Shown in pieces: positions 4,575 to 21,184 of a stretch of DNA of 57,271 nucleotides. Within the stretch, counting starts at the first letter, position 1. Each line of letters starts with the position of its first letter. The translations under genes were made by a program, and so were the position numbers. The DNA is taken from positions 42,420-99,690 of the forward strand of contig PKTT01000030.1 in NCBI GenBank assembly GCA_002869015.1, written 5' to 3'. The DNA is from Deltaproteobacteria bacterium (lineage in GTDB: Bacteria; Desulfobacterota; Deferrisomatia; Deferrisomatales; BM512). The notes beneath the pieces were generated by a model that did no database searches, had not been told where the DNA came from, and saw only the letters and a list, made by a program, of their open reading frames with translations.

Positions 4575-5342
4575 CTAACGCTGCCTCTCCCGGGCCGCCT
4601 TATTTCGCTTTGCCTCCAGCGCCATCGCATACTTCATATACGCGCCAAATGCTGAAATAACAGAGACATTGAGCCCGTCCAGCCCCTGCATTATTCCACC
4701 CCGCAGGATGTACTGCTTAAAGAATCTGCTTATGCCGTGGAGGAGCGGAGAGAGCGGGGATATTCTTCCTCCGCGAGCGAGGAGCTGCTTTGCGCCGCGC
4801 GCGGCGAATTTGTCCACCCTCTTTACGATATCGCTGTAATCGGCATAGGAATAATGGAGCAGGTCGCATGGCAGCTTCTTTATACGCCCGCCCTTTACGG
4901 AGGCGTGCCCGATGCTCTCCTCATAGGCGCAAAGACGCCGGTCGTAGAGGCGCGTGACCCAATCGGGGTACCAGAGCTTTATCCAACGGTCGCCTATAAA
5001 GGTCTTCCTCCGAACCGCATAGGCGTCGGCGTCGGGGTGCTCAAGGTCAAGCTCCAGAAGAGTTTTTACTGCGGAATCCTCAAGCCTTTCGTCGGCGTCG
5101 ATGGAAAAAATCCAGTCGTTTTTGGCGTACTTGACCCCATAATTTTTCTGCGGCCCATCACCAAGATATGGCTGCACGAATACACGCGCCCCCGCAGCCT
5201 CGGCCAGCTCCACAGTGCGGTCCGTGGAGGCTGAGTCCACCACTATAACCTCATCACAAAAACGAGCGGCGGAGGCAACGACAGCTTCAATATTGGCCTC
5301 CTCGTTCAAGGTTATGATGGTCGCGGTGACTGGCTTTGTCAT
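4575..5342 (-). CDS. Family 2 glycosyltransferase, WaaE/KdtX-like
   Basis: A 255-residue enzyme starting TATIITLNEEANIEAVVAS, with VVDSASTDRTVELAEAAGA and FSIDADERLED (the DxD donor site) and a WYPDWVTRLYDRR motif. This pattern is characteristic of the WaaE/KdtX branch of GT2, which adds a beta-glucose to the first heptose of the LPS core. The C-terminus (SRFFKQYILRGGIMQGLDG) is amphipathic and probably sits at the inner membrane, as in relatives. The ATG directly follows the TAA of the Trm112-like gene, so the pair is probably translationally coupled. Confidence 0.8.
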   Translation of the reverse strand: MTKPVTATIITLNEEANIEAVVASAARFCDEVIVVDSASTDRTVELAEAAGARVFVQPYLGDGPQKNYGVKYAKNDWIFSIDADERLEDSAVKTLLELDLEHPDADAYAVRRKTFIGDRWIKLWYPDWVTRLYDRRLCAYEESIGHASVKGGRIKKLPCDLLHYSYADYSDIVKRVDKFAARGAKQLLARGGRISPLSPLLHGISRFFKQYILRGGIMQGLDGLNVSVISAFGAYMKYAMALEAKRNKAARERQR

Positions 5343-5525: not shown

Positions 5526-6082
5526 TGCTCCTTTGCCCCGCCAAGAAGGGCTTCAGTGAATTTGCCGATATCATCGAAGACACCATCTGGAATGACCCCC
5601 TTCTTCTTCATCGTGCTCTCGAAGGATTTGCCATAGCCCGTTCTAACCAGCGCGGTGTGGGTGCCCGCGCTTCTCCCCGCCTCGATATCGGAGAGCTTGT
5701 CGCCCACCATCCAGGACGCGGAGAGGTCAACATTAAGCTCACGGGCCGCAGCCAGGATCATTCCGGGAGAGGGTTTTCGGCAACCGCACCCGCCCGAGAA
5801 GTCAGGGTGGTGGGGGCACCAGAGAAACATCTCAACCTTTGCTCCGGCGGCATTAAGCTCTTTTGCCAAGGCGACGTTTATCCGCTCCACTGCGCCGTCG
5901 TCGAAGAGGCCGCGCGCAACCCCCGACTGGTTGGAGACAACTATCAATAGGTACCCCGCCTCCCCCAGCCTGGAGAGCGCCTCTGCGGAGCCTTCAATAA
6001 GCTTCATATTTTTTACTTTAGAGAGAAACTCGACCTCTTCGACAATTGTGCCGTCCCGGTCGAGAAATACCGCTTTCTTCAT
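5522..6082 (-). CDS. gmhB: D-glycero-D-manno-heptose 1,7-bisphosphate 7-phosphatase
   Basis: A 186-residue HAD-family phosphatase. KAVFLDRDGTIVEE carries the DxD catalytic pair at its start, VVSNQSGVARG is motif II, CRKPSPGM supplies the Lys of motif III, and WMVGDKLSDIEAG is motif IV. The CPHHPDFSGGCGCRKP segment supplies the Cys and His residues of the structural zinc site that separates GmhB from HisB-N relatives. It removes the 7-phosphate during ADP-heptose synthesis, which fits the heptosyltransferases nearby. Length is normal. Confidence 0.92.
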   Translation of the reverse strand: MKKAVFLDRDGTIVEEVEFLSKVKNMKLIEGSAEALSRLGEAGYLLIVVSNQSGVARGLFDDGAVERINVALAKELNAAGAKVEMFLWCPHHPDFSGGCGCRKPSPGMILAAARELNVDLSASWMVGDKLSDIEAGRSAGTHTALVRTGYGKSFESTMKKKGVIPDGVFDDIGKFTEALLGGAKEQ

Positions 6083-15831: not shown

Positions 15832-16635
15832 ATGGATGACCTTAAAATCAATCAAAGCTGTTGAGCCCCTGAGGATGGTGCCGGTCGGCACTCCGAAGCT
15901 GATTCAATTATTGCTACAGATCAAAAGACCACCCACTGCACGGCTTGCGGTTCACCCCTTGAGTACCTCACCTCTTCTGTAACTCTAAAATGTGACAGCT
16001 GCGGCATGGAGTCGCTGGCGCATATTAGATGTCCGGAGGGACACTTTGTTTGCGACGGATGTTACAACATCGATGCCCCCGAGCACTTTAAGTTATTAGT
16101 TTTATCGACCATCACGGAAGATCCGATATTGTTGGCAGAGGAGATGTTCAGCAACTCCAAACTGCCGATGCTGGGGTGCCAGCATGCATATATCGCAGCG
16201 GGAGCCCTGCTTGGAGCTCTCCGGGTTGGCGGTAAGGCCATGATAGCGGAGGATGAGATTTCCGAGGTTTTCTCAAGGCTGGACAAACAAGCCATAGGGG
16301 GCTACTGCGGCCTTACCGGGGTTTGCGGAGTAACGCCTGCCATCGGGGCGGTTTTCGCCTTGCTTACAGGCTCAAGGTGCGGCACTGACCGCGAACAGCG
16401 CATTACGATGGAGGCTGCGACACGCGCATCGAGGGCTATAACCGAGCTAACTGGGCCTAGCTGCTGCAAAGCATACGTGCTTGGCGCAATAAGGGTAGCG
16501 GTAGATTATCTGGAGGAGGCCCTTGGAATTACCCTGCCCCTCTCCGAAGCCAGAGCTTGCAACTTCAGCCAAGCCCATCCCCATGGATGCCGTGAAGCCG
16601 CTTGCCCTTTCTTCGCTGTCGCTGAGAGGTGTTAG
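15832..16635 (+). CDS. DUF5714-family selenoprotein with in-frame UGA (Sec11)
   Basis: The frame starts at ATG 15832 after AAGGG and reads MDDLKINQSC, then UGA at 15862-15864, then APEDGAGRHSEADS and on to TAG at 16635: 267 residues with selenocysteine at 11, next to Cys10. A SECIS hairpin follows the UGA at the right distance. The first zinc ribbon (Cys36, Cys39, Cys54, Cys57) lies between the UGA and the next ATG at 16006, and no ATG, GTG or TTG occurs in this stretch, so a start at 16006 would delete half of a conserved domain. Later come CPEGHFVCDGC, LGCQHAYIAAGALL, GGYCGLTGVCGV, TGPSCCK and CNFSQAHPHGC, the DUF5714 Cys/His pattern. Function is unknown; metal binding and redox chemistry are likely. 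Confidence 0.88.
15862..15894 (+). promoter_or_regulatory. Bacterial SECIS element with UGA selenocysteine codon
   Basis: UGA at 15862-15864. Inner stem GTGCC (15878-15882) / GGCAC (15887-15891) closes the tetraloop GGTC (15883-15886), and an outer stem GGA (15873-15875) / TCC (15892-15894) is separated by a bulge containing U. The loop begins 18 nt after the UGA. A GGUC loop and bulged U are the SelB-binding features known from E. coli fdhF, where I recall the same 18-nt spacing. Confidence 0.88.
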
Positions 16636-16640
16636 GGCTG

Positions 16641-17546
16641 ATGGTGGAGAGAGGAGGCCGCTTCTGTGAAAGGTTGGTCATATTGCTAGCCTTTGTTCTA
16701 ATGGCCCTATTGATTGTCAACGCCAGCTGGGCAACTGAGGAGTTCGCCCTTGAGAGCAACGAGCCATGCAAGACCTGCCACCTGGATGAAACGGGTGGAG
16801 GCACACTCACCCCAGTGGGCGAAGCTTTCCTCTCCTCCGGCTACAAATGGCCCCCGCCCCAATCCTCCATAGGCGCCCCAAAGACTTTTGGCGAGCGAAT
16901 TTTCAAAATGCTCCTTGGCATGGCACACCTTATCGCCGCCTTCGCCTGGATTGGTACGATACTCTATGTCCATCTGGTCCTTAAGCCAAAGTACGCGAAG
17001 GGGGGCCTTCCAAAGACAGAGATGCGCATAGCCTTTATCTCCATAATCATACTTGGCGTCACAGGAGTAATCCTGACAAAGATGCGCTATCATCACCCTG
17101 CCGCGCTCCTCGATTCTACCTCCGGCAAGCTCCTGCTGGTAAAGATCGGCCTCTATCTCTTCCTGGTCTTATCGGCGCTCTACGTCTCTCAAGTGCTTAG
17201 CCCGAAGCTGAAAAAACTTCGCGCCGGATGGCAATCAAATGACGGCGTTGATGGGCGGCCTGCGTGGGTCAAGGTTGAAGAGGCTCTTTATGATTTGAGC
17301 ACCAGCGAGAGGTGGAAGGACGGAAACCATTTCGGCCGTCACCAGGCTGGAGAGGATATGACAGAGGCACTTAAGGGAGCTCCGCACGGCGTCGAGAAAT
17401 TGGAGGGTTTCCCAACCTTCTCAATGGCGAACGGTGATCTTAATAGGGAATCGAAAGAGGTCCGGCTGCTTTATATGATGGCCTACGTAAACCTGGGGGT
17501 AGCTTTCGGGATACTGCTGGTAGTGGGTATGTGGAGATTCTGGTGA
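16641..17546 (+). CDS. Membrane redox protein: CxxCH haem motif, CopD-like helices, cytochrome b5-like region
   Basis: About 301 residues. A signal or anchor segment lies at 12-31, then a short exported region with one c-type haem site, C43-K-T-C46-H47. Three helices (about 92-110, 126-148, 158-184) resemble the CopD/DUF2214-type membrane domain and carry His residues suited to haem b. A soluble stretch (about 210-255) reads VEEALYDLSTSERWKDGNHFGRH and then GAPHGVEKL, the spacing of a cytochrome b5-like haem pocket. A last helix is near 278-298. It follows the selenoprotein with 5 bp spacing, or overlaps it if GTG 16629 is the start. It probably moves electrons across the inner membrane; partners are unknown. 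Confidence 0.72.
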   Translation: MVERGGRFCERLVILLAFVLMALLIVNASWATEEFALESNEPCKTCHLDETGGGTLTPVGEAFLSSGYKWPPPQSSIGAPKTFGERIFKMLLGMAHLIAAFAWIGTILYVHLVLKPKYAKGGLPKTEMRIAFISIIILGVTGVILTKMRYHHPAALLDSTSGKLLLVKIGLYLFLVLSALYVSQVLSPKLKKLRAGWQSNDGVDGRPAWVKVEEALYDLSTSERWKDGNHFGRHQAGEDMTEALKGAPHGVEKLEGFPTFSMANGDLNRESKEVRLLYMMAYVNLGVAFGILLVVGMWRFW

Positions 17547-20590: not shown

Positions 20591-21184
20591 TTAATAAATA
20601 AGCACAAGCCCATAGACGCTTGCCAGCTTCTCACCGCCATCCTCAGGCTGAACTCCGCTCCAGGAGAGTTTCCACCCCGCCTCGGCGGCAAGTGCCGTAA
20701 CATCTACTCCATATCCTGACATAGAACGCCTCGCGAATCTCGGCTGCCTGCACGCCCCGCCAGAAAGAGCTTGGCAACGCTCCTCCTCGCCACAGAAGAT
20801 GACCTTGCAGGAGCCCCCCGTATAAGCCTCAGCCTCTCTAAAACCCAGCTCTTTTGCCAGCTCCTCTGCCCCAACAGCAAGCTCGCTTAGCCTCTTAAAT
20901 GCCGTGTAAGACTCCTTTGAATTGAGGAGCTTAAGAGGAACGTCCAGCTTTAGGGTGACCGCCTTTTCAAAGCGCTTAAGCTTCTCCCGCATGCCCTCTG
21001 GGCCCTCGACGTTTGGGGGACAGCTGAGCGCGAGGCCATAGTTTGGGCATTTCGGCTCAAGGCATCTTGCAGCCAGAGCTTCATCTACAATTATTTTAGA
21101 GACATCCACAACGCGGGCATCCGAGGCTCCTGCGCGCTTTAAGCTCCTAACGAGTTCAGCAAGCTTTTGGAGTTTATCTTCCAT
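20591..21184 (-). CDS. DUF2284 metal-binding protein
   Basis: 197 residues of the DUF2284 family, which appears to be a predicted metal-binding protein of anaerobes and archaea. ARCLEPKCPNYGLALSCPPN near residue 40 has the C-x-x-C-x(n)-C-P-P motif, and GGSCKVIFCGEEERCQALSGGACRQPRFARRSMSGYGVDV near 125 has a second Cys cluster. Nine or more conserved Cys suggest a Zn or Fe-S site. Biochemical role unknown. It lies 50 bp upstream of the GNAT gene on the same strand. Confidence 0.85.
   Translation of the reverse strand: MEDKLQKLAELVRSLKRAGASDARVVDVSKIIVDEALAARCLEPKCPNYGLALSCPPNVEGPEGMREKLKRFEKAVTLKLDVPLKLLNSKESYTAFKRLSELAVGAEELAKELGFREAEAYTGGSCKVIFCGEEERCQALSGGACRQPRFARRSMSGYGVDVTALAAEAGWKLSWSGVQPEDGGEKLASVYGLVLIY

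Follow-up and report, generated by a model that had tools for sequence, protein, structure and literature searches.

A predicted stand-alone DUF5714 selenoprotein with an N-terminal Cys-Sec arm, related to the first half of the double selenoprotein MbdU

The closest described system to the gene studied here is the metal-binding double selenoprotein MbdU (NCBIfam NF045648), which joins a DUF5714 half to a DUF2284 half carrying a second Sec. A 2026 review lists MbdU with the motif CU and two Sec and credits Haft & Tolstoy 2025 for it (PMC13188914). SaoC also presents a CU motif, but it is a separate family in the same listing (PMC13188914). The deep-Sep paper (PMC12013277) does not mention the DUF5714/MbdU family, and no curated NCBIfam model covers a stand-alone, single-Sec DUF5714 form.

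Three other groups are related more loosely. Radical SAM–ArsM-like proteins with a C-terminal DUF5714 domain (PF18978) share the core and the zinc ribbon and often display CC before the ribbon, but they have Cys instead of Sec and group in a clade of their own (support 100). The families NF041536 (ArsM/DUF2284) and NF041537 (ArsM/AhpD) contain Sec-bearing DUF2284 and AhpD domains, which are fused to DUF5714 in relatives of our protein; by model, however, they are not DUF5714 proteins, and they include a catalytic ArsM domain that is absent from the protein described here. Finally, a TsoA-like gene of the Tso type (three selenoprotein operon) adjoins DUF5714 in about 15 loci, whereas our gene has no Tso neighbor.

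We analyzed a window of 57,271 nucleotides (the whole stretch of DNA under study) from a deltaproteobacterial genome. The selenoprotein gene spans 15832..16635 on the + strand and encodes 267 aa with TGA read as Sec: a Cys-Sec arm, a zinc ribbon, and a DUF5714 domain. The reading frame runs from ATG 15832 to TAG 16633-16635 with a single in-frame UGA (15862..15864, + strand), codon 11, immediately 3′ of the Cys10 codon. The predicted zinc-ribbon ligands (C36, C39, C54, C57 and C67, H71, C74, C77; 15937..16065, + strand) are invariant in 50 homologues, and the helical, Cys-rich DUF5714 core (16099..16614, + strand) matched PF18978 with 144.6 bits (E 2.8e-42), above the Pfam gathering score of 26.2 bits. 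Nine core cysteines (C116, C159, C165, C183, C211, C212, C243, C253, and C258) are also invariant in the 50 homologues. The original prediction placed the start at ATG 15832 and the in-frame UGA at 15862, with no other start before 16006, and the sequence agrees on each point: no in-frame ATG, GTG, or TTG was found between the TGA and 16006. Starting at 16006 (Met59) would remove C36, C39, C54, and C57.

Against NF045648, the protein matched with E 4e-100, its residues 5-264 aligning to model positions 3-269, but its 336 bits are below the curated cut-off of 600 bits. It shares with MbdU the N-terminal DUF5714 half, with the same CU arm (residues 10-11), zinc ribbon, and core. It lacks the C-terminal DUF2284 half and the second Sec, as the frame stops after residue 267 and holds one UGA. 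For comparison, a Nitrospirota fusion (L068) scored 823 bits and contains the second Sec in ...GVTUPSGE.... The protein is thus a stand-alone, single-Sec relative of the MbdU N-terminal half. It had been proposed as a novel selenoprotein family, and this was too strong: the protein falls outside MbdU and yet has MbdU's first Sec, which was already in NF045648 and in the 2026 listing (PMC13188914). What lies outside the curated models is the stand-alone, single-Sec DUF5714 form; the family core and the first Sec were known from MbdU.

The genome is equipped to decode UGA as Sec, since it harbors SelA (574 bits), SelB (379 bits), SelD (357 bits), and a tRNA-Sec (selC) with a TCA anticodon; all four genes had been named for a search, and all were present. 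None of selA, selB, and selD lies in the neighborhood of the tRNA-Sec gene; they are located on other contigs. The SelD of this genome (L061, G000:C56:16519-17445) has an in-frame TGA itself and is probably a selenoprotein too. TGA is the ordinary stop in 13 of the 41 long ORFs of the window, so there is no wholesale recoding in this genome. Codon-position bias 5′ of the UGA was modest among relatives (45 of 89 differences at third positions in 11 pairs), and the comparison of the window with its sister species (L063) offered too few differing sites for this measure.

Downstream of the UGA, a bacterial SECIS hairpin, GGUGCC-GGUC-GGCACU, was located at 15877..15892 (+ strand). Positions 15877-15882 pair with 15887-15892 in a 6-bp stem, which carries the GGUC loop at 15883-15886. 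The loop sits 18 nt past the UGA codon, as first described, and the hairpin (MFE -12.4 kcal/mol over 44 nt) fits the published bacterial SECIS model: loop of 3-9 nt, stem of 4-16 bp, spacing of 16-37 nt, G in the first two loop positions, and MFE <= -7.5 kcal/mol. Taken alone, it was no better than chance, either against dinucleotide shuffles (z 0.03) or against synonymous recodings (p 0.16), and support for the SECIS therefore comes from the relatives. In 56 relatives, the stretch just 3′ of the UGA forms a more stable fold than its synonymous recodings do, with a combined z of -11.8 over sites that are not independent.

Covariation reached 0.937 in 39 distinct, loop-aligned homologous hairpins, vs. 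0.231 +/- 0.032 in shuffles, with two-sided (compensatory) changes at 6 of 6 stem pairs, and the signal was lost once the partner was slid by one base. Standard pairs filled 90.6% of the pair cells vs. 52.2% when shuffled, a somewhat flattering figure because the loop position was picked from four registers per sequence –a choice that slides and shuffles did not have– and because 7 of 46 distinct hairpins were excluded, most of them having no 4-nt loop with a long stem in those registers. Altogether, UGA 15862 is almost certainly decoded as Sec via SelB, tRNA-Sec, and the SECIS, a reading that is computationally well supported. The original proposal, a DUF5714-family selenoprotein that combines a Cys-Sec motif with a SECIS, is upheld by conservation, covariation, and the Sec machinery.

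At the position equivalent to Cys10-Sec11, the Cys-Sec pair is invariant in 10 stand-alone homologues, one of them with reversed order: Thermosulfurimonas dismutans (L133 4965) presents Sec-Cys (GUCH), and its SECIS-like hairpin is still there. The tail UGA occurs in nearly all subfamily relatives, across several phyla. Both a conserved N-terminal segment and either Sec or Cys at that position had been expected in DUF5714 homologues, and both were seen. Among 15 sister DUF5714 proteins examined, many of which are radical SAM–ArsM-like fusions, seven show Cys-Cys at a distance of 20-40 residues ahead of the ribbon and three more have CxC.

Of the 83 cores placed in a tree, 73 formed one clade (support 100), separate from the ArsM-type sisters. 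The N-terminal pair was found in 51 of these 73 members and a C-terminal Sec in 16. The remaining six are L067 (C-terminal DCU), L077 (its arm carrying two UGAs, GUDU, in place of CU, at 4890), L107 (GU), L089 and L137 (cut by the contig end), and L112. In this last locus, CGC (Arg) replaces the UGA at the Sec codon (2849) and the hairpin is partly kept, a possible loss of Sec. Stand-alone proteins outnumber every other architecture in the sample (36/73), and they occur in a Bacillota branch and across the tree. Members come mainly from metagenome assemblies, with Clostridium and Desulfosporosinus among the cultured ones; the named ones include Clostridium carboxidivorans P7 (L134, a cultured strain with the short form), C. 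drakei, Desulfosporosinus, and Acetoanaerobium.

A set of 17 Nitrospirota loci lacks the N-terminal arm and has a UGA 1-3 codons ahead of the terminal stop (...GGSCUR, ...ACVTUKP). Most of the 15 C-terminal-type loci that we read display a strong 3′UTR hairpin past the stop, for example GCGUCC-CGUC-GGGACGC and CCGUCC-GGUC-GGACGG, in a region free of protein constraint. The C-terminal position of the arm needs two changes on the tree, and the nearest neighbors of the window protein include one C-terminal-arm group (support 92, in a quick tree). Two types were observed. Six loci (L095, L096, L100, L101, L108, and L109) have an armless N-terminus, end in ...CUR/K-stop (~5736-5772 or equivalent), and carry a SECIS-like hairpin in the 3′UTR. 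The second type ends in CxxU, then KP or RP, and the stop (e.g., ACVTUKP), with a hairpin downstream in those checked (loci L097, L098, L105, L106, L111, L116, L119, L127, L128, L130, and L131). In other proteins, DUF5714 is fused to an AhpD/CMD domain that carries a Sec itself, in GCxPUT (L087 2106-3311, L067, and L126); these fusions reach three Sec, as L087 has three in-frame UGAs in total.

The gene directly downstream of ours (16641..17546, + strand) starts 5 nt 3′ of it and encodes a CopD-like membrane protein (PF05425, E 3.4e-10) with a CKTCH motif, possibly an operon partner. It is also directly downstream in L063, and was not seen in loci beyond these two. The other neighbors are, by eye, a thioesterase-like and a TrmO-like gene. 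No metalloid operon was seen around the gene, with no flanking ArsR, Tso gene, or metal exporter. A search for TsoA had no match in this genome, and the same search matched in no control genome either; the only ArsM-like methyltransferases encoded there do not reach the family cut-off.

Across the wider family, the proposal of soft metal or metalloid chemistry draws on domain partners, regulators, and transporters. DUF5714 is fused to an arsenite-methyltransferase-like (ArsM-like) domain together with radical SAM, to DUF2284, or to AhpD/CMD. An ArsR-type regulator is present in the fetched flanks of 20 loci (the one checked, in L068, is ArsR/TsoR-like), and ArsP and ACR3 transporters occasionally appear, at L110 and L140.

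At the structural level, an AlphaFold2 model (mean pLDDT 81, pTM 0.80) presented disordered residues 1-31, followed by the zinc ribbon and a helical core. Searching the PDB with the core gave no match to a solved structure (best E 0.7), so the metal site is read from conserved Cys and His alone. Cys10-Sec11 sits on a disordered N-terminal arm, about 30 residues long, ahead of the zinc ribbon and a Cys-rich DUF5714 core, where we propose a binding site for a soft metal or metalloid. By moving into this site, the arm would capture, reduce, or pass on a metal(loid) or organo-metal(loid), the selenolate acting as soft ligand or nucleophile and the Cys as resolving or second ligand. As the pair moved to the C-terminus in some Nitrospirota, it would work from either end.

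Judged from the sequence, the function of the window protein is uncertain, and we give the mobile Cys-Sec arm serving a Cys-rich metal(loid) site roughly an even chance. Our best explanation as a whole –a genuine single-Sec relative of the MbdU half with a metal(loid)-serving arm– seems reasonably probable. More tentatively, DUF5714 selenoproteins might be a broad, mostly unannotated superfamily, with the Cys-Sec arm at either end or joined to further Sec domains, in which the arm carries out a novel step, connected with ArsM-like chemistry, that transfers or reduces metalloids or organometals.

The main rival to a metal(loid) function is a plain redox role. The protein would then be a thiol/selenol redox enzyme that needs zinc only for its structure and uses a Cys-Sec selenenylsulfide cycle to reduce sulfur compounds, disulfides, or peroxides. 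Neighboring Cys and Sec residues are known to act as redox dyads, the AhpD/CMD domain of the fusions is of the peroxidase type, and the CopD-like protein directly downstream in this genus carries a CxxCH haem motif. Such an enzyme would nevertheless have far more invariant core Cys than a structural zinc ribbon needs, and it sits poorly with the wider family, which is tied to ArsM-like domains, to DUF2284 metal-binding domains, and to regulators of the ArsR type. We regard a plain redox enzyme as rather unlikely.

Two further alternatives concern the gene itself. It could be a decayed or split MbdU, with the DUF2284 half lost or supplied by the DUF2284 gene at 20591..21184, 4 kb off on the - strand, which matches MbdU positions 282-449. 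We rejected that gene as the missing C-terminal half: it matched with 32 bits only (over MbdU positions 291-449) and is of the Cys type, with no Sec motif and no UGA replacing the second Sec. Because stand-alone forms are common in the clade, and L063 likewise has the short form only, a decayed or split MbdU is improbable. It is even harder to sustain that the UGA is a true stop, followed by a downstream restart or leaving a pseudogene. The window hairpin by itself would allow it, but the first available start codon lies beyond most of the zinc ribbon, the UGA is conserved across many genera beside an invariant Cys, and a covarying SECIS goes together with a full Sec machinery; we consider a true stop extremely improbable. 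The reading of a single-Sec relative of the MbdU half is the one we retain.

Genes of this kind are easily missed or clipped in annotation, since the Sec UGA lies within the first few dozen or the last few codons and the single-domain form is outside every curated model. The shift of the arm between the protein ends, with the SECIS following, provides a natural test of the role of the Cys-Sec pair. Moreover, a large set of candidates, some from cultured strains, joins the emerging metal- and metalloid-related selenoproteins.

Apart from the gene described here, the surveyed loci contained two further arrangements. In L068 (4578-4847) and about 14 other loci, the TsoA-like ORF beside DUF5714 spans model positions 66-144 only, and such short ORFs, holding just the C-terminal part, are consistent with a Sec UGA of their own further upstream. 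In L053 (3197-6385), a protein of about 1060 aa fuses radical SAM, an ArsM-like methyltransferase, and DUF5714; it lies beside glycosyltransferase-like and FAD-oxidoreductase-like genes, and the whole looks like an organoarsenic cluster.
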